Origin: a virus
Reading direction: 5' to 3' (one strand)
DNA: 20,307 bases
IMG/VR virus record: IMGVR_UViG_3300049479_000041
Location: 1 to 20,307 of that record
Shown: piece by piece, positions 2,118-18,830 of the stretch
Layout: every line of letters starts with the position of its first letter
How positions within the stretch are numbered: position 1 is the first letter of the stretch
Translations under genes and position numbers: made by a program
The notes under the pieces: model-generated
What the model was told of the DNA's origin: nothing
What the model saw: the letters and a program-made list of their open reading frames with translations, nothing else
The model's database searches: none

Positions 2118-2401
2118 ATCTTGAAATCGAAGCCTACGAAGGAGAACTCCGTAAACTACGCCAAGCACTAGCGCAACCGGAACAAGAGCCTGTGGGGTAT
2201 GTAACCATTGAGAACATTTCTAGTTGGACACAAGTTCCCTCAATAAAGTGGTTCAAAAAACCTACTGAAGGACCACTCTACACCGCACCACCAAAGCGTG
2301 AATGGGTTGGGCTGACGGATGAAGATGTTGTTACTGTGAAGAATGAATTTAACCGTGGTGCATTGTGGGCAGAGCAAGTGCTGAAGGAGAAGAACACATG
2401 A
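2114..2401 (+). CDS. hypothetical protein with PLYTAPP...WVGLTDEDV motif (95 aa)
   Basis: The gene starts at an ATGA overlap with the helicase stop and has GGAGG six bases upstream. It ends in another ATGA overlap with the methyltransferase. The N-terminus is a short Glu/Leu/Arg helix ending in QALAQPEQEPVGYV. The middle carries GPLYTAPPKR, and the C-terminal part is WVGLTDEDV followed by a helix. I associate this modular pattern with small phage and prophage proteins from Burkholderiales, where the segments are shuffled and repeated; this is from memory, not a search. Function is unknown. Its presence suggests gene exchange with phages of such hosts. Confidence 0.7.
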   Translation: MNLEIEAYEGELRKLRQALAQPEQEPVGYVTIENISSWTQVPSIKWFKKPTEGPLYTAPPKREWVGLTDEDVVTVKNEFNRGALWAEQVLKEKNT

Positions 2402-3027
2402 GTCATCCTGACCAAGCCTTTGGTGATAAGACTTACTCGCAGTTTGGAGAAGACTTAATACTACTGAATGTGTTTCACAAGCTAGGTATTGAGAAAGGCA
2501 GATACTTTGATGTAGGCGCACACAATCCCTGGAACATCAGCAACACTGCGCTACTGTACGAGCGTGGATGGAGAGGCGTATGCGTTGAAGCTAACCCTAA
2601 TCAGATTGGTGGCTTCGAGTTGGCTAGGCCAGAGGATAACATCCTGAATGTTGGTGTTGGCTGCTCAATTGGTACGATGCCTTTCTACATGATTGATGAC
2701 TACTCAGGTAGGAATACTTTTGATAAGAATAAAGCTGAGAAGTTTGTCTCTGACTATCCTTGGTTCAAGATTCAAGAGGTTAGGGAAATCCCTATGGTGA
2801 CAATCGATAGTTTGTTTAAGAGTTTATATGTGCCTGACTTATTGTGTATCGACATCGAAGGCTACGACTACCCAGTGCTTATGAGTATGGAAGCAAGGCC
2901 AAAGGTAATCTGTGCAGAGAATGAGGGACAGATACAAGACTTTGATGACTTGCTAAAAGGCATGGGATATGATAAAATATTTAATACCGTAGCAAATGGA
3001 ATCTACATTCATGCGACTAGCACTTGA
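2398..3027 (+). CDS. FkbM-family SAM-dependent methyltransferase (209 aa)
   Basis: This is a Rossmann-fold methyltransferase of the FkbM type. The SAM-binding motif I is YFDVGAHNP at residues 37-44. The acidic residue that holds the ribose lies in GVCVEANP at 60-67. The family-typical VTIDSLF (134-140) is followed by LLCIDIEGYDYPVL at 148-161. FkbM enzymes usually O-methylate sugars or small metabolites, and bacterial members often act on surface polysaccharides; the substrate here cannot be read. I chose ATG 2398 because AAGGAG precedes it and it overlaps the upstream stop as ATGA. The end overlaps the polymerase gene by 17 bases. A methyltransferase between helicase and polymerase genes is not part of a standard T7-like replication set. 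Confidence 0.9.
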   Translation: MSHPDQAFGDKTYSQFGEDLILLNVFHKLGIEKGRYFDVGAHNPWNISNTALLYERGWRGVCVEANPNQIGGFELARPEDNILNVGVGCSIGTMPFYMIDDYSGRNTFDKNKAEKFVSDYPWFKIQEVREIPMVTIDSLFKSLYVPDLLCIDIEGYDYPVLMSMEARPKVICAENEGQIQDFDDLLKGMGYDKIFNTVANGIYIHATST

Positions 3028-5533: not shown

Positions 5534-6237
5534 TGTTCGCACTTATCGATGCCGATATTGTTTGCTACCGAATCGGATTTGCTTCTGAGGAAGTTAGCGA
5601 CAGAATCTGTGTGGCTCGATGTGCGGAGTTTATGGAAGAGCTGGTGATGAAGCCTTGGGTAGGTGACTACCAGGGTTATCTCACTGGCTCTGACAACTTT
5701 CGTAAAGATGTAGCAGTAACAGTCCCATACAAAGGCAACAGAGTCGGAACCAAGCCTAAACACTATGACCTAATCAGAGAATATTTAGAGAAGGCTTGGG
5801 GATGTATTGTTGTGCAGGGCCAGGAAGCTGATGATGCAATAGGTATCAGAGCTTACGAGTTTGAAGATGTTGAAGACTACGTTATTATGTCTATCGATAA
5901 AGACCTTGACATGATTCACGGCTGGCATTATAACTTTGTGAAGGACAACAAGTATTTAATTGATGACGAACAGGCTATCAGGAATTTCTATACGCAGATT
6001 CTTACTGGCGATAGGGTTGATAATGTTGTTGGTCTGAAAGGCGTTGGTCCAAAGAAGGCTGCAAAGATTCTTGAGGACTGCACCACAGAGCAAGAGTTAT
6101 ACGATGCAGTTCTGAAGGCTTACGATAACGATGAGAAACGAGTACTAGAGAACGGACAACTTCTATGGATACGAAGAAAAGAAAATCAGATTTGGTCTCC
6201 AGCCCTATTCAGTACATCCAATGGGTTGACGCAGTAG
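5533..6237 (+). CDS. 5'-3' exonuclease, PIN/FEN-like (234 aa)
   Basis: This is a phage 5'-3' exonuclease of the FEN superfamily, the counterpart of T7 gp6, which degrades host DNA and removes RNA primers. The N-terminus carries the metal-binding strand FALIDADIVCYR (Asp6, Asp8). The middle has VPYKGNR followed by KPKHYDLIREYL, then QEADDAIGIRAYE and the motif SIDKDLDMIHGWHYN. The helix-hairpin-helix region TGDRVDNVVGLKGVGPKKAAKIL lies around 155-180 and binds DNA. The ATG overlaps the preceding stop. The last 73 bases overlap the next gene. The tail after about residue 215 is basic and probably flexible. Confidence 0.94.
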   Translation: MFALIDADIVCYRIGFASEEVSDRICVARCAEFMEELVMKPWVGDYQGYLTGSDNFRKDVAVTVPYKGNRVGTKPKHYDLIREYLEKAWGCIVVQGQEADDAIGIRAYEFEDVEDYVIMSIDKDLDMIHGWHYNFVKDNKYLIDDEQAIRNFYTQILTGDRVDNVVGLKGVGPKKAAKILEDCTTEQELYDAVLKAYDNDEKRVLENGQLLWIRRKENQIWSPALFSTSNGLTQ

Positions 6238-6506
6238 CGGATGTGGAGTGGCAGGAAAATGTCAAAGCTGAAGTTCACCTTTGTCACACTATCGGATGGA
6301 TTGTTGATGAAACAGATGATGCTTTATGTATCGCTAGCACAGTCAGTATGGACAGTAGCAATGCCCGTATGCATATCCCTAAGCAGTGGATTAAAGTAAG
6401 AAAGGAAGTTATCTTTGAAACCGAGCAGCGCCAAGTCCAAAGGAAGACACCTTCAAAAGTGGGTAAGAGATCTAATACTTGCCAAGTTCGACCTGGAGCA
6501 CGATGA
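6165..6506 (+). CDS. hypothetical phage protein with GWIVxETDDALCIAS motif (113 aa)
   Basis: The gene starts inside the exonuclease gene in a different frame. After a basic leader (MDTKKRKSDL) come VDAVADVEW, then HLCHTIGWIVDETDDALCIA and finally MHIPKQWIKVRKEV. This order of motifs recurs in small podovirus proteins encoded beside nucleases, and I know of no assigned function. The usual family end would be near KEV at about residue 80. The last roughly 30 residues are basic and are encoded entirely within the overlap with the nuclease gene. No strong ribosome-binding site is visible, so translation may depend on the upstream ribosomes. Confidence 0.75.
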   Translation: MDTKKRKSDLVSSPIQYIQWVDAVADVEWQENVKAEVHLCHTIGWIVDETDDALCIASTVSMDSSNARMHIPKQWIKVRKEVIFETEQRQVQRKTPSKVGKRSNTCQVRPGAR

Positions 6507-6756
6507 TGTACGCTCAGTTAGTATGGGCGTGTCGGGAGAAGACCTGCTACTTAGTCCAGCAGCCAGACGGAAGCTACCAATCAGTTTGGAATGCAAGTCC
6601 AGAGCAGCTATCTCAGTATACGGTTATTACGAACAAGCAAAGACAAATGCAGGAGGACACGAACCTGTCGTTGTTATTAAACAGAATCGGTCCAGCCCTC
6701 TTGTAGTTGTTGATGCTGAATACTTTTTTGACTTACTAAGGAGCAAGCATGAGTAA
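6415..6756 (+). CDS. PD-(D/E)XK nuclease, putative Holliday junction resolvase (113 aa)
   Basis: The start is a TTG chosen because AAGGAAG lies six bases upstream. The product opens with a basic segment SKGRHLQKWVRDL. DDVRSVSMGVSGEDLLLSPAAR follows, with Glu42 and Asp43, then LPISLECK with Glu59 and Lys61, which is the ExK half of a PD-(D/E)XK active site. VYGYYEQA contributes a conserved glutamine at about 75. This family replaces T7 endonuclease I in many marine and freshwater podoviruses, so a junction-resolving or debranching role is likely; that is inference from the family. It overlaps the previous gene by 92 bases and the next by eight. Confidence 0.85.
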   Translation: MKPSSAKSKGRHLQKWVRDLILAKFDLEHDDVRSVSMGVSGEDLLLSPAARRKLPISLECKSRAAISVYGYYEQAKTNAGGHEPVVVIKQNRSSPLVVVDAEYFFDLLRSKHE

Positions 6757-7042
6757 TGTATTTCGATTCATCTATGATTCAGAAAAAGGCAATGGGTTTT
6801 TTGTTTCGCCTGAAGCAAGCACTATTAAGGCACGACACTACTTCGAGGACGGTATCACATGGGTTCCTATCCTATGGCAGTTTTGTAAATTCCTTGAAAG
6901 CGTAGGTTACGAAGGTGTGCGTGGTCGAGTAGTCATCAAAGACCCTTACGGTATGGAAAGCGAGTCACATCTGTTTGATACTATTGGTCCTGATGATGTT
7001 ATTGTTAAGACTGAGGTTGAAGACGAAGAAGAGGAAGAGTAA
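6749..7042 (+). CDS. hypothetical protein with poly-acidic tail (97 aa)
   Basis: The ATG has AAGGAG upstream and overlaps the nuclease stop by eight bases. The product begins MSNVFRFIYDSEKGNGFFV, has an aromatic middle (ITWVPILWQFCKFLESVGY) and a beta-rich part GRVVIKDPYG. It ends in EVEDEEEEE. I do not recognise the family. The acidic tail could mimic DNA or contact a basic partner such as the neighbouring nuclease; that is speculation. At the DNA level the Glu codons of the tail form GAGGAAGAG, which also serves as the ribosome-binding site for the next gene, whose ATG overlaps this stop (TAATG). Confidence 0.65.
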   Translation: MSNVFRFIYDSEKGNGFFVSPEASTIKARHYFEDGITWVPILWQFCKFLESVGYEGVRGRVVIKDPYGMESESHLFDTIGPDDVIVKTEVEDEEEEE

Positions 7043-7809
7043 TGACTGTTCATGCCATAATCCCAGACTGCCAAGTCAAGGACGGTGTTGATCTAAGTTA
7101 TCTTACCTGGGTGGGAAAGTATCTAGTAGAAAAGAAGCCAGATGTGATTGTACAGATTGGCGACTTTGCTGATATGCCTAGTCTATCCAGCTATGATGTA
7201 GGTAAGAAGAGCTTTGAAGGCCGTAGATACAAGACAGATATCGAAGTAACAAACAAAGCAATGGAGATGTTACTAGCTCCGATTAAGGAACATAATGAAA
7301 GAGCACGAAGAAATAAGGATAAGCAGTACCGACCAAGAATGGTTCTCACTCTCGGAAACCATGAAGAAAGAATTTCCAGGGCTGTCGAAGGAGACCCTAA
7401 ACTTGACGGAACTATTAGTCTCGATGATCTTAGATACGAACGTCATGGTTGGGAAGTTATACCGTATCTTGAACCTATTGTCATTGATGGCGTTGTGTAC
7501 GCTCATTACTTTACTTCTGGCGTTATGGGGCGTCCTGTAACATCTGCTGCTGCATTGCTAGCCAAGAAGCATATGAGTGCTGTGATGGGCCATGTGCAGA
7601 ATAGACAGATAGCTTACGCTAATAGAGCTGATGGTTCACAGATTACAGGCTTGTTCAGTGGTTGTTGCTACCTGCATGATGAGGATTATCTAGGCAGTCA
7701 AGGCAACAAGTACTGGCGTGGTATCTGGATGCTGCACGAGGTGAACAACGGCAGCTTTGATGAGATGCCTGTGTCACTAAACTATCTGAGGAAAAAGTAT
7801 GAGCATTGA
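7042..7809 (+). CDS. calcineurin-like metallophosphoesterase (255 aa)
   Basis: This is a two-metal phosphoesterase of the calcineurin-like superfamily. Visible motifs are IIPDCQ (Asp9), VQIGDFAD (Asp41), LTLGNHEE (Asn106, His107), VYAHYF near 152 and MGHVQ near 180. The first motif has Gln where the classical D-x-H has His. I recall the D-x-Q form as typical of the marine phage branch of this family. Substrate is unknown; cyclic nucleotides, phosphodiesters or phosphorylated DNA or RNA ends are the usual candidates. It lies among replication and nucleotide genes, overlaps the preceding stop by one base and the DUF3310 gene by 11 bases. Confidence 0.9.
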   Translation: MTVHAIIPDCQVKDGVDLSYLTWVGKYLVEKKPDVIVQIGDFADMPSLSSYDVGKKSFEGRRYKTDIEVTNKAMEMLLAPIKEHNERARRNKDKQYRPRMVLTLGNHEERISRAVEGDPKLDGTISLDDLRYERHGWEVIPYLEPIVIDGVVYAHYFTSGVMGRPVTSAAALLAKKHMSAVMGHVQNRQIAYANRADGSQITGLFSGCCYLHDEDYLGSQGNKYWRGIWMLHEVNNGSFDEMPVSLNYLRKKYEH

Positions 7810-12670: not shown

Positions 12671-14734
12671 CTAGTCCTCTAATACATCTGGTTGCATCCC
12701 ACGCTTAGTCAAGAGGTTAAGTACAAACTCAGCTCTCTTCTCTGGGTCTTGAACAAGCATTGATAGTGTACGCATACGCTCAGCCTTGCGAACTTCCTCT
12801 GCTATGCCTTTAACAAGTCTTGCCTGCATAGGACGAGACAGAGCTAAGAAGCCAGGATTCTGAGCTAGCATTGTAGCAGCACGATTAAGCTGGTCTCCAG
12901 CACGATTAGTCATGTCAGCATACTGCTCAGCAGTCAACTCAAGACCACCAACCTTCCTGTCCATTGTAGCCAGACGAAGATAAGGATTATCAAATATAGC
13001 CTGAGATACTTCACGCTCAAGCGGTGTAACCTGGATACCAGTCAGGACAGATCCAACATTCATCTGTTGTGTTTGACCAAGCAGGTTAGTCTGCTCAGGC
13101 AGCGTAGAGCGCAGCCCAGGTAAGCGACTCTTCAGGTTATTCAGAATCCAGTTAGCTGTATCTGGGTCTTTAATCTCTCTACGGACAGGGTCTTCAATCC
13201 TGGCAATCTGGTTCAGGATAGCTGGTACAATTGGGTTAGTCAGACTGACCAGATATGACTCCAAGTACCGATCAGGCTCCTGCATAGCCAGCATAGCCTT
13301 GCCTAAGCCCTCAGTAAAGGTCTTGTCCAGGAAATTCTGTCCTACTATCTTGAAGACAGCACCGATGCTAGGACTCTCTCCCTTCATCTTACCAGTCTTC
13401 AGTGCATTCATGGAGTCCACTACAAGGCCCATGACAGTAGAGAAGGGTTCAATTCGGTCATATGAGACCCACCTATCTCCCATCTTGATAGACATAGGAG
13501 GGACACCAGAAGCAATCTGACCAGCCCTGGTAGATGGGTCAGACGAGTAGTGACCAGTGACCAATCCCTGCTGCACCATACCATAGGTAGCTAGCATGAA
13601 TCCAGCGCCTATAGCCTGCTGAGCTACAAACTCAGGAATCTTCTCTTCCTTGAATGTACGCTCACCTTCTAGCATTGCCTTACGTTTTAACAACTTATCT
13701 AGTTTAGCCTGAGCATTTTCAATTTGTCCTGGAAACACTGCATTCGCTAAATTTTCTTCAGCTTTTTTAATTTTTTCATTTAGACCAACAATGACTTTAC
13801 CATCAACCAAACCGCCTTCAAGTTTTAAATTGATATCTTTAATATCACTCTTAGCCTGACGAACACGCAACATGCCAGCGCCAGGAATATAACCACCAGC
13901 TTCTTTAGCAATGTTAATACCAGTACGCAGGAACGGAACAACAAGGTTAAACTCAGGAGCAATGTTCTTGGCTTCAGCAATTAACTGTCCACCACGGTCA
14001 ATCAGAGACTTACCAAGCGGTGTGCGAAATGTGTTGAATGCTGCAAAGTTCTCTAGTTGATAGCGCAGAGCTGGGTCACGGTCTTCTAAGTATCGCAGCA
14101 TAGTCGCATTACCATCTTTGTTCTTCATGGCAATATCGTCTAGCTCTTTGATGAATGCTTCCCTGGTTGTACCGCGCCTAGCAAAGTACTCATCAGGAAA
14201 CTTCTGCTCAATCCTGTGAATCATAGCACGGTATTCCATGCGCTCGAGCACTGCTGAGAACGCCTGATCAAGCGCACCAGTCAGTCGTTGAGGATAGGTC
14301 AGGACAGCATCACCATATTTGTTTCTAACAATGTCAAATGCTTGATGCGTGTTACCATCAAAGTCTTCTGTACGCTTTGACAGTCCAGCCATGAACCGTG
14401 GGAAAGCCTCAGTAAAGCCTTCACCAATACCACGCAGCATAGCTAGTCCTTCGCTAGGTCTACCAGCCAAAGCTCGTGTGATTGGAGCTAATGCAAGCTG
14501 GGCAGTCTGAGACACAAAGTTCACTACCTGTGTAGACAGAGCAGATAGGTAGCTGTTACGAATAAATGCACCAATACGTTCTCTAACGCTTGGGTCTTTG
14601 AGGACCTTGGTAGCTGCATCAGAGACTGCTGCGCCTGCCTCACCTGGAGACAGCACAGGGTTAGTCATAATATCGTCAGTGGCTTTGACCCAGTTAGCCA
14701 GGAAGTCTGCACACTTTTTGGTAATACCCGCCAT
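12671..14734 (-). CDS. large internal virion / polyvalent-type protein, C-terminal part (687 aa)
   Basis: ATG 14734 overlaps the preceding stop (TAATG) and only GGGG lies upstream. RNSYLSALSTQVVNFVSQ (about 59-76) resembles the RNxxLSxxxTxxxN motif of giant phage polyvalent proteins. VVPFLRTGINI (about 265-275) and RWVSYDRIEPFSTVMGL (about 421-437) also fit that class. A coiled-coil segment lies at about 300-365 and a hydrophobic stretch at about 370-385. Such proteins are packed in the virion and ejected with DNA in other phages. Here it looks like the last of three pieces that elsewhere are one long protein; this is inference. No enzymatic domain is visible. Confidence 0.75.
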   Translation of the reverse strand: MAGITKKCADFLANWVKATDDIMTNPVLSPGEAGAAVSDAATKVLKDPSVRERIGAFIRNSYLSALSTQVVNFVSQTAQLALAPITRALAGRPSEGLAMLRGIGEGFTEAFPRFMAGLSKRTEDFDGNTHQAFDIVRNKYGDAVLTYPQRLTGALDQAFSAVLERMEYRAMIHRIEQKFPDEYFARRGTTREAFIKELDDIAMKNKDGNATMLRYLEDRDPALRYQLENFAAFNTFRTPLGKSLIDRGGQLIAEAKNIAPEFNLVVPFLRTGINIAKEAGGYIPGAGMLRVRQAKSDIKDINLKLEGGLVDGKVIVGLNEKIKKAEENLANAVFPGQIENAQAKLDKLLKRKAMLEGERTFKEEKIPEFVAQQAIGAGFMLATYGMVQQGLVTGHYSSDPSTRAGQIASGVPPMSIKMGDRWVSYDRIEPFSTVMGLVVDSMNALKTGKMKGESPSIGAVFKIVGQNFLDKTFTEGLGKAMLAMQEPDRYLESYLVSLTNPIVPAILNQIARIEDPVRREIKDPDTANWILNNLKSRLPGLRSTLPEQTNLLGQTQQMNVGSVLTGIQVTPLEREVSQAIFDNPYLRLATMDRKVGGLELTAEQYADMTNRAGDQLNRAATMLAQNPGFLALSRPMQARLVKGIAEEVRKAERMRTLSMLVQDPEKRAEFVLNLLTKRGMQPDVLED

Positions 14735-15363
14735 TAGCAAGCCCCGTTATTAAATAGTTTTGTTATCTGTGCGTTAGCTTGAATCTGCTTGTACATATAC
14801 TTGTAAGTATTGAAACCAACAGACAGAGCATTCTGATCAGCTCGTACACCAGCAAAGATAGCGATTGACTTAGCAATCTCTGCACCATACCTAGCTGTCA
14901 TTTCCTGGTCACCAGCTTCAAATGCTTTTAAGTATTGACGGTTCAGCAACGGCATCTCTTCCAGGCGCTTTAGAAATGCAGGCAGTGCCAGAGCACGTTC
15001 TTCGTTACTAAGTGGATTACCTCTCTCCACACGCATCAGAATATCCTGGCCTAATGCTCGTGCGTCAGGACTATCAAATCCACCCTCTCGTGCTGACTTT
15101 AGCGCTTTTTGGTAAGTCTCATTGGTAAAGGTATCCATCTGAATACCCTTATTAGTCTTACCTTCAACACGCCTACCAAATACATAGGCAAGCCCTTCCA
15201 TCAAGTCCTTCTCATCATCGTTAGCGTACACACGCTCGTTCATGAAGAAGTTCTTCTTACTAGCGTCCATCTTCAGGAGCTTGTCCATCTGATTGGATGT
15301 GATGTTATTAATCCTTACCTTTGGTAGGACACCTTTGTATAACGGTAAATCGCATCTAGCCAT
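14734..15363 (-). CDS. putative internal virion protein, middle part (209 aa)
   Basis: ATG 15363 overlaps the preceding stop (TAATG); a GTG nine bases upstream is the alternative start. The product is mostly helical and charged. It has a basic N-terminus (MARCDLPLYKGVLPKVRINN), a middle around VYANDDEKDLMEGLAYVFGR and a C-terminal helix rich in Tyr, Lys and Gln. No family is recognised. It ends in TAATG with the large protein downstream. Its position between two parts of a probable ejection complex, with no strong ribosome-binding site at either junction, suggests fixed stoichiometry with them. Confidence 0.7.
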   Translation of the reverse strand: MARCDLPLYKGVLPKVRINNITSNQMDKLLKMDASKKNFFMNERVYANDDEKDLMEGLAYVFGRRVEGKTNKGIQMDTFTNETYQKALKSAREGGFDSPDARALGQDILMRVERGNPLSNEERALALPAFLKRLEEMPLLNRQYLKAFEAGDQEMTARYGAEIAKSIAIFAGVRADQNALSVGFNTYKYMYKQIQANAQITKLFNNGAC

Positions 15364-16808
15364 TATCTGCACCCATCAAAGAAACCAGCTTCAACCATCT
15401 TAATCTGATCGTCAGCATCAATACCTTTGGTTATAAAGTCTTCAAAGGATTTAGCTTTAAAGTTACGTCCATTTAGGGCCTTCATGTCATCCAGGTATCT
15501 ACGGTATGCTACGACATTGCGTGAAGCATCTGGCATACTTTTGATGAATGTTGGGTCAGCTCTCTGCATAACTGAGACAGCTTCTTCAGCCTGCTTAGGT
15601 GACAGGACAGGATAGCCTTTTGGACCAGTTCTATAACCAGCACCTAAATTATACACCTTTTTTGAAAAGTCGTCAAGATACTTGTCAGGAGGATTGATCA
15701 GGTTATCTACAGCCCTGGAGAAGTTAAACTTAAAGTTATCAATCTGACCTATACCAGACAAGCCAGCTTCTCCTTGTGCCAGCTTACCAGCCTGGACCAC
15801 CTCTGACCTGACCTCTCGTGCCAGCTTAGAGATAGTAGCTTCGTCTGTCTGCAAAGCCTGCTGCAGGAAGGCCATATAGTCGTCATGCCTAGCTGATTTT
15901 GTGGCAGGATTGCCTACGATGTATAGTGCTTTATCTACGTCAGACTCAAAATCGATAGTAGACTTAGCAAACCTGGGCTTAGCGCCAGCCAGGAACTGTG
16001 GTAAAACGGGAGTTATCTCTTCCTCTACTGTCTTGGCTACAGTAACTTCAGGGCTTTCTACCCTTGGCTCTAGTCCATCTATGGTCGCAGCCCTACGCTC
16101 CTCTGCTAACTGTCTTGCCTTCAGTAAGTCCTCGGTTACTGGAGCATCTTCCTTAACCCAGTTCCCATCTTCATCTAGTTTTAACTTGAAGTGCGGGGTA
16201 GTAATCTCTTTCCCGTCTGGGGAGACTGTCCCTGTATTAATAATGTCATCAGCTACTTTTGGACCAAACTTCTCAATCAGCTTACCGATACCAAAGCCTA
16301 GTGTTCCTCCGATAGTGGCTCCGACAGCAGCTCCTCCAAGCCTACCCAGATCCTCCTCAGTGTAGATAGGACGAACAGCACCAGCAATACCACCACCAAC
16401 AGCGCCAGCAGCAGCTACGCCTTTAGCGCCTTTTAGAAGAAAAGAACCAGGAAGGAGAGTGCTTGGATTAACAAGGCCACCAACAAGAGTACCCAGGCCA
16501 GTAGCAAACCCACGTTCTTCAGCAGCCTGTCTTGCCAAGTTCTCTTGAGCCACTTGTTTGTCACTTAGCTCTCCACCGAATATCTGCTTGATACCGTCAA
16601 CTTCAGACAAGACTTCAGCACGAGCGCCAGCCATGAACGCTTCACCAAAGGAGAAGTTCTGCTTATTAAGATAGGATACAATTTCATTATCTTTATATCC
16701 TTCTTTACGAGCATCGGCAATATTAAAACCAGAACGCTGTGCTAAATAATCTGCAATCTCTGCGTCTGTGTAGCCTTCTCGTTTTGCTGCTAATACATTG
16801 AAAGCCAT
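15363..16808 (-). CDS. putative internal virion protein with N-terminal tandem repeat (481 aa)
   Basis: AAGGAT precedes the ATG. The N-terminus has two copies of a short helical repeat 25 residues apart: REGYTDAEIADYL (about 10-22) and KEGYKDNEIVSYL (about 35-47). Repeats of this form sit at the start of internal or ejected proteins of other phages. Residues 100-180 are rich in Gly and Ala (GLGTLVGGLVNP, AAAGAVGGGIAGAV, GGAAVGATIGGTLGFGIG) and could insert in membranes. The rest is mixed and helical. This layout suits a DNA-ejection protein that crosses the host envelope. It is the first of three coupled genes. Confidence 0.75.
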   Translation of the reverse strand: MAFNVLAAKREGYTDAEIADYLAQRSGFNIADARKEGYKDNEIVSYLNKQNFSFGEAFMAGARAEVLSEVDGIKQIFGGELSDKQVAQENLARQAAEERGFATGLGTLVGGLVNPSTLLPGSFLLKGAKGVAAAGAVGGGIAGAVRPIYTEEDLGRLGGAAVGATIGGTLGFGIGKLIEKFGPKVADDIINTGTVSPDGKEITTPHFKLKLDEDGNWVKEDAPVTEDLLKARQLAEERRAATIDGLEPRVESPEVTVAKTVEEEITPVLPQFLAGAKPRFAKSTIDFESDVDKALYIVGNPATKSARHDDYMAFLQQALQTDEATISKLAREVRSEVVQAGKLAQGEAGLSGIGQIDNFKFNFSRAVDNLINPPDKYLDDFSKKVYNLGAGYRTGPKGYPVLSPKQAEEAVSVMQRADPTFIKSMPDASRNVVAYRRYLDDMKALNGRNFKAKSFEDFITKGIDADDQIKMVEAGFFDGCR

Positions 16809-16817
16809 GTATTATCC

Positions 16818-17843
16818 TTATTCAGAATCTCTTTGTCGCCACTCTTCCATTGTCAGACCACGAGGACTTGGTGTATAAACATAAGTATTACCTCGTCCTT
16901 TGCTTCTAATATATCTTGTGTTCATGCTTGATGCAGTAGCAGCTTCTGGTACACCCGCAGGCTGTGAAGCCCCTGACTCAAACGAACCCAAAGGCCTACG
17001 TTCTCCAGGCGGTCTAGTAGGCTGACCAGGAGTTGCTGCGCCGCCGCCTTCTAGTAATGCTGCATACGGACTAGGAGCAGCTAAGCGTTTAACCTTACCT
17101 TCATACACTTTACCATCCATCTTATACAGTTTACCACCACGGCGAGTAAGAGGTTCTCCAGATTCTGTAACAAGGTTTTCACTAACCTCACCACCAGCAG
17201 CTCTTTCAACCTGTGCTCTGGATGCTGCAGCAGATGCTTCAGATGCACGAATCTGAGCTTCTTTAACAGCTTGATCAAAGTTACGCTGACCAATTGCAGC
17301 AGATGCTCCAGCCAGGATAACTTGACGCTGAGGAGAATCTTCAGGTAGTTGAAGAGCTTTAGCAATAGAACCATATGGGTCTTTGTTAACTTCATCAAGC
17401 AGTACCTGACGCTCACGAAGACCAAGTTCAGACTTACGAATACCAAGTTCTTCAGTTCTGATAGCCTCGGCACGTTCTTGTTGACGATACTTAGCAGCTT
17501 CCTGAGCAGCCATCATAGCCTGCTGACCAAAGCCTAACTCAGAGAATCTACGAGCCATAGCCTCATATGATGCAGCAGGATTAGCTGGATCAAAGTTAGT
17601 CATAGCTTCATTAAACACACGCTGTGTATCAGCGACTCTACGCAATGCTGGGTCAGATACTTCAAAGAATCCACGACCACCGAACAAGTTAGCAAGACCA
17701 CGGCCTAAGACAGCGCCCGATGTAGAGGCTAATCCTAGCTGAGGATTCTGAAAGTTCTGATAACGCTGAATCTCTTGCTGTGCTAACTGACGAGCAAGGT
17801 ACTCAGGGTCTTGTGCTAGAAGTTGTTGTGCTGACATTCCCAT
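16818..17843 (-). CDS. putative DNA-ejection / internal virion protein (341 aa)
   Basis: AGGAG lies ahead of the ATG; a second ATG two codons on is possible. The N-terminus is Gln-rich and helical (MSAQQLLAQDPEYLARQL, then QEIQRYQNFQ). A Gly-rich turn GRGLANLFGGRGFFEVSDP follows near 50. Residues 105-150 and 185-225 are charged, Ala-rich helices with coiled-coil character. The C-terminal third is Gly/Pro-rich and looks disordered (GGGAATPGQPTRPPG), ending in WRQRDSE. No enzymatic motif is seen. I infer an internal virion protein from composition and from its place between the other ejection-type genes. Confidence 0.65.
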   Translation of the reverse strand: MGMSAQQLLAQDPEYLARQLAQQEIQRYQNFQNPQLGLASTSGAVLGRGLANLFGGRGFFEVSDPALRRVADTQRVFNEAMTNFDPANPAASYEAMARRFSELGFGQQAMMAAQEAAKYRQQERAEAIRTEELGIRKSELGLRERQVLLDEVNKDPYGSIAKALQLPEDSPQRQVILAGASAAIGQRNFDQAVKEAQIRASEASAAASRAQVERAAGGEVSENLVTESGEPLTRRGGKLYKMDGKVYEGKVKRLAAPSPYAALLEGGGAATPGQPTRPPGERRPLGSFESGASQPAGVPEAATASSMNTRYIRSKGRGNTYVYTPSPRGLTMEEWRQRDSE

Positions 17844-17858
17844 TATGATTATCTCCTA

Positions 17859-18830
17859 TTACATCCAACCAAAACTACCACCACCTTGTGGAGGAGGAAC
17901 GCCTCTTCCACCGCCGCCACCCATACCACCAGAGGCAGCACCAATCAGTGATTGTAGGAAGGCAGCATTAGCAGCGTTAGCTTGTTGTACGCCTTGGTAG
18001 CGAGTCTGAGCAGCTTGGGACAAGCCAGTACCAAGTAATGTAGCTCCTGCCTGTGCTCCAGGTTGAGCAGCACCACCAACAGCCAAGCCCATCTGGAATG
18101 GTTGCTGACCAAGTTGTTCAACAGTGCCTACAGTACCAAGTAATGAAGATAATGGAGCTAGCGCCTGTGTGGGTATTGAATATTGTTGACCAAGCAAACT
18201 AGCGCCAGTACCAAACAAACTAGCGCCATATCCGAGTTGTTGTTGAGCAGCTTGTTCAGCCTGAGCAGCCAGTGCTAAGTCTTGTTGTCTTCGTGCAGCA
18301 GCTAGTGTAGCAAGTTCTGGCTGACCAGTAGGACCAACATTTAATCCAGCACGGCCACGACCAAAGACAGAAGATGCTAGTCTTGCTTCTTCAGCAGCAC
18401 GAGGCTGGGCTAGGAGTGCCTGTTGCTGACTAAAGTAACGTTGACGTAGTTCTTCAGGAGACTGTGCTAGGTACTGCTGACCAAGACCAAAAAGACCTGC
18501 AGCAGCTTGGCCTAATGGCATTCCTGCAGCTTGTGCTTGCTCTGCAGTGGTAAGAGCACCGCCAGTCAAACCCATCAGCCTGTCTTGGATAGCTCGTAAC
18601 TCTGGAGCTACTTCGTACTCTGCAGATGTAACACGAGGAACCCCGCCTACATCCGTGATACCAAAGCGTGAAGTACCAAAGCGACTAGTCATCCCGACTG
18701 GTCTAAACGCAGCTATGTTAGCCGCCTGTCTACCTGCTTCTGCCTGTTGAGCAGCGGCTTGTTCAGCGGCTCTCCTGGTAGAACTAGCACCAGTAAACGG
18801 ATCTAATACTGCACTAACTACATTACCCAT
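17859..18830 (-). CDS. putative DNA-ejection / internal virion protein, Ala/Gln/Gly-rich (323 aa)
   Basis: AGGAG precedes the ATG and the stop of the gene before overlaps it (TAATG). Ala and Gln dominate. The N-terminus has an Ala/Gln helix (RRAAEQAAAQQAEAGRQAAN), then FRPVGMTSRFGTSRFGITD near 42-60. I associate this RPVGxTxRFG stretch with structural proteins of aquatic podoviruses. A long Ala/Gln/Leu helix spans about 115-220. The C-terminus is a glycine run ending GGSFGWM. It may be a pilot or ejection protein; that is inference from composition and position. Confidence 0.65.
   Translation of the reverse strand: MGNVVSAVLDPFTGASSTRRAAEQAAAQQAEAGRQAANIAAFRPVGMTSRFGTSRFGITDVGGVPRVTSAEYEVAPELRAIQDRLMGLTGGALTTAEQAQAAGMPLGQAAAGLFGLGQQYLAQSPEELRQRYFSQQQALLAQPRAAEEARLASSVFGRGRAGLNVGPTGQPELATLAAARRQQDLALAAQAEQAAQQQLGYGASLFGTGASLLGQQYSIPTQALAPLSSLLGTVGTVEQLGQQPFQMGLAVGGAAQPGAQAGATLLGTGLSQAAQTRYQGVQQANAANAAFLQSLIGAASGGMGGGGGRGVPPPQGGGSFGWM

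Follow-up and report, generated by a model that had tools for sequence, protein, structure and literature searches.

Cysteines at every break of a giant phage internal virion protein that is probably divided among three genes

The question raised by the locus described here is whether three adjacent late genes of a phage encode successive pieces of one giant virion protein and, if so, what would hold the pieces together. The genes lie on the − strand of a 20,307-base virus record from IMG/VR (IMGVR_UViG_3300049479_000041), the whole of which is referred to below as the window, and encode, in order, a first piece of 481 amino acids (open reading frame 1, ORF1; 15363..16808), a second of 209 amino acids (ORF2; 14734..15363) and a third of 687 amino acids (ORF3; 12671..14734). 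At junction J1 (15361..15365), the ORF1 stop codon (15365-15363) shares one base with the ORF2 ATG (15363-15361), and at junction J2 (14732..14736), the ORF2 stop codon (14736-14734) does the same with the ORF3 ATG (14734-14732), both junctions reading TAATG on the − strand. A preliminary description of this DNA, made from the sequence alone, had reported the three genes, their one-base overlaps and the lack of a strong ribosome-binding site, and the coordinates and our own reading of the junctions agree with it; by eye, no AGGAG-like ribosome-binding site was seen just upstream of the J1 and J2 starts, only GGG or GGGG. Absent from that description is a conserved feature, namely, that a cysteine (Cys) stands on either side of each break and that the chains contain no other. 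From this placement, we consider it rather probable that terminal disulfides would join the separately translated chains head to tail, restoring one ejection protein.

The three proteins together contain 1377 residues and four Cys, one at each broken end. ORF1 terminates in FDGCR, its sole Cys being residue 480 (codon TGC, 15369..15371, − strand), and ORF2 opens with MARC, its Cys4 (15352..15354, −) forming the downstream half of the J1 pair. The only other Cys of ORF2 is the last residue of its terminal NGAC (Cys209; TGC, 14737..14739, −), the upstream half of the J2 pair, which is completed by the sole Cys of ORF3, residue 8 of MAGITKKC (14711..14713, −). For four Cys placed at random, the probability of finding one in each 10-residue end window is ~7e-8. 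The arrangement is not peculiar to the window. In a census of the three-gene family, comprising 46 records, six had neither junction complete, and J1 of record L070 was unbroken; L009, L041, L044, L142, L149 and L150 were left unscored, one side being cut off. Wherever both sides could be seen, the J1 pair was present in 39/39 records (15 clusters at 90% identity) and the J2 pair in 39/40 (16 clusters at the same identity), the sole miss being L049, which carries a deletion across J2 relative to L050. Clustering of the 40 ORF2 proteins at 90% identity likewise gives 16 groups, of which L070 is one. Among 13 diverse ORF2 sequences, 13 alignment columns are invariant, two of which are the Cys; in 11 diverse ORF3 proteins, no column but that of the Cys is invariant within the first 45 residues. 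In an alignment of 17 ORF3 rows (A11), the Cys column is nearly invariant, which we take for the effect of a misaligned row, the census finding the Cys in each A11 row that was scored. The ORF1 Cys is also conserved in relatives.

Across the family, the upstream Cys is the last to fourth-from-last residue (FDGC, FDGCR, DGCWS, DGCNLL), encoded by TGC or TGT, and the downstream Cys occurs at residue 3-8, with no other Cys in the chains. A third Cys appears in ORF2 of L045 only if its listed, more upstream start is used, and the extra Cys counted by the census in ORF1 of L045, L052 and L058 lie upstream of the start codon in the stop-to-stop reading, leaving one Cys when counted from the start. 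A single Cys at residue 4 in L097 was considered as a further case and rejected, as it precedes the likelier start and the gene upstream has no Cys. It may be asked whether the Cys are a by-product of the overlap DNA, TGC preceding TAATG or TGATG, without selection at the protein level. The window, like many relatives, does have the Cys codon adjoining the stop codon; however, the Cys stands 1-4 residues from the end with a variable codon, and the downstream Cys lies outside the overlap. Nor do other adjacent genes display such a pattern: of 430 distinct pairs of neighbouring genes on one strand in the loci compared, 54 carry a Cys within the last 4 residues of the upstream product, 94 within the first 20 of the downstream product and 48 in both places, and all but one of these 48 (47/48) are the split junctions described here. 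We regard a by-product origin as scarcely credible.

That the three genes correspond to one protein is indicated by comparison with homologues made as a single chain. ORF3 matches PHROG 6651, an internal virion protein family (E 1e-30 at profile positions 1022-1304), whose profile has 1375 positions, close to the 1377 residues of the three pieces; ORF1 and ORF2 gave no match to this profile. A tblastn search with ORF3 retrieved 37 phage records (GenBank/RefSeq duplicates included), and 27 of the 37 matches fell in genes with an internal virion or internal core protein annotation. In L016 (uncultured phage MedDCM-OCT-S45-C18), an ORF3-type match at 1330-1677 lies near the record end in a stretch without an annotated gene. 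When a profile of the concatenated pieces, built from 15 records, was compared by hhalign, it aligned end to end with 14 one-chain proteins of 1121-1415 amino acids (probability 100, E 3e-50; window residues 32-1371 on P-GSP1 56-1209), and it also aligned with 10 fused IMG/VR proteins (probability 99.9, E 1e-35; window residues 3-1368 on L066 61-1391). Taken singly, ORF3 50-674 matches the cyanophage one-chain profile at E 9e-53, and the fused IMG/VR profile is matched by ORF3 242-560 (E 1e-16) and by ORF1 264-346 (15771..16019, −; E 1e-22), the latter a domain common to the one-chain homologues that is also detected by hmmsearch. ORF1 alone gave no significant match to the cyanophage profile, and ORF2 alone gave none to either profile, its colinearity being by position only. 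The ORF1 264-346 domain was, in addition, found in giant phage proteins that differ widely (852-3220 amino acids) and had no other detected domain in common.

In these comparisons, the closest known counterparts are the internal virion or core proteins of T7-like cyanophages (P-GSP1, Syn5, S-TIP28 and others; PHROG 6651), which are homologous and colinear over the whole length, most strongly in ORF3, and of similar length (1121-1639 amino acids, against a window total of 1377); they differ in being one chain, mostly without Cys, whereas the window has three chains with a Cys at each meeting end. T7 gp16 resembles the window proteins in place and size, as judged from the annotation of homologues, and in the helical structure predicted for ORF3, but is one chain; no profile gave significant similarity to T7 gp16 by hhalign, and no transglycosylase domain was found with Pfam in the three pieces. 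The single-chain encoding of gp16-type proteins is replaced here by three genes, and these are conserved. Searching the PDB by sequence with the ORF3 and ORF2 profiles returned nothing meaningful (ORF2 matched mostly designed helical and 14-3-3 proteins), and the ORF3 model, all-helical with a predicted local distance difference test (pLDDT) score of 65 and a predicted template modelling (pTM) score of 0.48, had no Foldseek match in the PDB at E <= 0.001, nor had a model of the joined ORF1 and ORF2 of L070. One of the alignments (A10), in which MAFFT had placed the terminal GC of ORF1 rows at the far end as an artefact, was still fed to structure prediction.

Judged by sequence, then, the three genes are probably one long internal virion (ejection) protein divided into separately translated chains, ORF2 being the least certain part, in line with the preliminary description. 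Its RNxxLS, VPFLRT and YDRIEPF motifs are all found in ORF3 (RNSYLS 59-64, VPFLRT 266-271, YDRIEPF 425-431) and are kept in 8 aligned relatives, whereas its label of a polyvalent-type protein finds no support, no such domain being detected by Pfam in any of the three proteins. The N-terminal repeats in its list fared less clearly: a DUF7626 match was obtained in Pfam for ORF1, only below threshold (19.7 bits, cut-off 27), and the N-terminus varies, L002 having an unrelated one. In L002 and L003 (both 5855-7372), the N-terminal part of ORF1 bears no relation to the window's, but the remainder is ~75% identical, which suggests the exchange of an N-terminal module. Fusion of the three regions in homologues is seen in part: ORF1 and ORF2 are joined in L070, the only place where ORF2 was seen fused to ORF1, and ORF1- and ORF3-type domains occur together in 13/48 unbroken IMG/VR chains (duplicates and truncated chains included), but ORF2 alone finds no significant match in the fused proteins.

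How constant is the division? The relatives found first (n=9; ORF3 78-89% identical) have identical start and stop codons at the visible junctions, and wider scans reached relatives with ORF3 33-58% identical to the window, ORF1 25-38% (tblastn) and ORF2 down to 21% among the 13 diverse proteins. Relatives with visible junctions are all three-part, except L070, with J1 rejoined, and L049, with its deletion at J2. Genome contigs scanned with the ORF3 profile yielded no relative, and named phages searched by tblastn with ORF1, ORF2 and the L028 ORF1 yielded no match. Every junction scored in the census consists of overlapping or directly adjacent genes, and the start offsets are −1 (TAATG), −4 (ATGA) or −11 at J1 and −1, −4 or 0 at J2, both the frame relation and the overlap type differing between clades. 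Since the overlap type is not constant, TAATG coupling is not the conserved feature; what is kept, although overlap type, frame relation, Cys-to-stop distance and codon all differ, is the Cys. In L127-L132 and L144 (for example, L128:7980-7985), ORF2 and ORF3 are in frame with one stop between them (TAA then ATG, offset 0), and read-through would therefore fuse them.

The same data bear on whether the split is an error of sequencing, or a programmed frameshift yielding one fused chain. A one-base overlap alone could arise by an indel, and the preliminary description had itself named a sequencing frameshift at 15363 or 14734 as a danger to its proposal; such an error is excluded because the split recurs in many assemblies of relatives. 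Programmed frameshifting was rejected in view of the clade-dependent frame relation at J1 and J2, and no slippery heptamer was seen by eye at the window junctions. Together, these two explanations have next to no probability in our estimation.

The record L070 shows what accompanies the absence of a break. Here, ORF1 and ORF2 form one 775-amino-acid chain from which both J1 Cys are absent, and the J2 pair is retained (ENGEC before the stop; MILNPRC at the next start). At the J1 site, L059 reads KRGDMDGCWS, stop, then MTKRCYLDKFARFLPE, as against KMGETDLNKFKRFLPE in L070. In the ORF3 tree (midpoint root; the program warned of long outgroup branches), L070 is sister to L059/L060/L062/L119 within the split clade with support of 100/100, and because of this nesting, a rejoined chain is the simpler reading of its sequence. 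The model of the L070 ORF1-ORF2 chain (pLDDT 73.6, pTM 0.39) may offer a hint, and only a hint, that the former J1 site lies in a short loop connecting helix 553-561 to helix 567-573. Unbroken chains elsewhere are similarly poor in Cys: 15/17 unbroken named proteins, T7 gp16 among them, and 42/48 unbroken IMG/VR chains with related domains have none. In T7, gp15 also lacks Cys; T7 gp14 (gene 14, L211:1229-1819) has a single one, at residue 2.

It could still be supposed that the division serves only stoichiometry or translation, through coupling by reinitiation, which in the preliminary description would fix equal amounts of the products, or an ordered non-covalent assembly, the Cys having a separate role. 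The overlapping or directly adjacent genes at all scored junctions would suit this, as would Synechococcus phage S-CBP2, which is apparently split without Cys (see below); against it, the Cys stay while the overlap type changes between clades, and both are gone in the rejoined L070. We hold this supposition to be distinctly improbable.

The same placement of Cys recurs in a second family, in which the division is between two genes. In the distant relative L095, the upstream chain, whose start is cut off, has a single Cys four from its end, and the downstream chain opens with MTNFC; in uncultured phage MedDCM-OCT-S31-C1, a protein of 1484 amino acids has its only Cys as the last residue and the next gene product (1145 amino acids) its only Cys at residue 3; and in the cultured Synechococcus phage S-SRP02, proteins of 1016 and 1094 amino acids have their only Cys as the last residue and residue 4, respectively. 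S37-C6, S38-C3 and L212, the last located in a Cyanobium metagenome-assembled genome, follow the same terminal pattern. A scan for this family gave 44 loci. In the portion available, every downstream chain (44/44) has a single Cys, at residue 3-4 counted from the likely start, and every visible upstream chain (43/43) has a single one, as the last or third-from-last residue; with L212 and S-SRP02, the downstream chains form 19 clusters. By eye, the break falls between two coiled-coil-like stretches, QLEELRKKHQGGSC before the stop and MADCNDLNQQIADIEAKLRQ after it. An ORF1-type domain is present in the upstream chains of S31-C1 (E 1e-11) and L095 (E 5e-12), and an ORF3-type domain in the S-SRP02 downstream chain (E 5e-8). 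The S-SRP02/MedDCM group (G9) thus shares with the window the terminal Cys pair and a downstream ORF3-type domain, but has one break instead of two, at a site that need not be that of J1, and its proteins are annotated as hypothetical or 'chromosome segregation ATPase-like'. Within the accessible text of the S-SRP02 paper (PMC8790148), one of the two proteins is listed as chromosome segregation ATPase-like, and the words virion and mass spectrometry are absent from that text.

In the mechanism that we propose for the window, the pieces would be translated in order and would fold jointly in the virion core, their broken ends lying next to each other. As there is one Cys at each meeting end and no other, two disulfides can join C-terminus to N-terminus: at each break, the C-terminal Cys of the upstream chain and the N-terminal Cys of the downstream chain would form an interchain disulfide replacing the missing peptide bond, giving one continuous, unbranched chain of ~1377 residues. 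The Cys would be oxidised after assembly or after lysis, and the coupled chain would then unfold and thread the tail channel, as its one-chain homologues presumably do. We propose that the Cys are strictly terminal, with no others in the chains, because chains linked end to end make a polymer without branches, which can pass through a narrow channel. Joining of the ends by a split intein or trans-splicing was rejected: Pfam (E <= 0.01) detects no intein domain in the three proteins, and the ends extend 1-8 residues beyond the Cys.

Two other uses of the thiols have to be weighed against end-to-end disulfides. In one, disulfides of the terminal Cys would stabilise an oligomer by linking copies within the core ring, whether like to like or from one subunit to another. 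The T7 internal virion proteins are oligomers according to the accessible part of an ejection-protein review (PMC8954989), and disulfides between virion subunits are known in the phages Milano and crAss001; core-ring bonds would, however, leave unexplained why Cys pairs flank each break and why both are lost at J1 of L070, and we rate them as improbable. In the other, the ends would be held by coordination, the paired Cys serving as ligands of a metal ion or cluster that is confined to one junction or shared by different copies. Two conserved thiols per junction could make half a zinc site, yet two ligands are few, and the alignments contain no conserved His or extra Cys adjoining them, which makes coordination very improbable in our judgement.

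If end-to-end disulfides are formed, they might do more than replace peptide bonds. The C-terminal part of T7 gp16 is delivered to the cytoplasm. It is conceivable, though we think it unlikely, that the disulfides act as redox couplers, joining the pieces in the virion and the oxidising periplasm, so that a single chain without branches would pass the tail, and being broken once in the reducing host cytoplasm, which would free the C-terminal piece.

Several observations weigh against coupling by disulfides. The cytoplasm is reducing during assembly, and oxidation would have to follow later. Cys are present in some unbroken homologues, three in ProddE and one in P60 among the named proteins, and in 6/48 of the IMG/VR chains. 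L070 is a single contig, and a second such arrangement, sought once, was not found. Furthermore, breaks occur without Cys: in Synechococcus phage S-CBP2, two genes (1051 + 773 amino acids; L166:880-6356) overlap at a TGATG and neither product contains Cys, the second matching the C-terminal part of one-chain proteins and the first not demonstrable as the N-terminal half, and S-CBP3 is broken without Cys into 389 + 863 amino acids (L158:2500-6314), a break that is probably a frameshift in the record. On account of these two phages, a broken chain can probably exist without Cys couplings.

Interchain disulfides between virion proteins are themselves established, in the tail of Agrobacterium phage Milano (accessible part of PMC10811340) and in the portal vertex and tail of crAss001 (accessible part of PMC10172136). 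Those bonds cross-link folded tail or capsid subunits, whereas the bond proposed here would replace a peptide bond within one protein. A literature search by title and abstract in one library of papers returned, among the matches listed, no description of cysteine-ended split ejection proteins. The words disulfide, cysteine and split are absent from the accessible text of the ejection-protein review (PMC8954989) and from the papers on the phage M1 ejectosome (PMC11440229) and the P-SCSP1u structure (PMC10575957), and disulfide and cysteine are absent from a T7 core paper (PMC11784390).

As for the surroundings of the three genes, the + strand of the window carries replication genes (primase-helicase, DNA polymerase, exonuclease, ribonucleotide reductase) and the − strand the late genes, with an endolysin gene where the two blocks meet. 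Directly upstream of ORF1 lies a gene for 341 amino acids (16818..17843, −) and farther upstream one for 323 amino acids (17859..18830, −), neither product having a Cys or a PHROG match; their position, and that alone, suggests that they are further internal virion proteins. Between the helicase and DNA polymerase genes, a 220-amino-acid gene (2365-3027, +) gives a weak methyltransferase match (PHROG 8156, E 1e-4).

For annotation, the pattern would supply a rule: where adjacent late genes have Cys only at the ends that meet, their products probably belong to one divided protein, and the rule could expose split proteins missed by sequence similarity. If the disulfides are formed as we propose, these phages would have swapped peptide bonds in a giant virion protein for disulfides between gene products and reverted at least once. 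This would amount to a natural experiment on a question that is otherwise hard to test, namely, whether the passage of an ejection protein requires one continuous chain. Were the disulfides also redox couplers, the giant ejection protein could be pictured as a train whose carriages are made separately and held by Cys couplings, which phages would have divided at several sites and, at least once, joined again.

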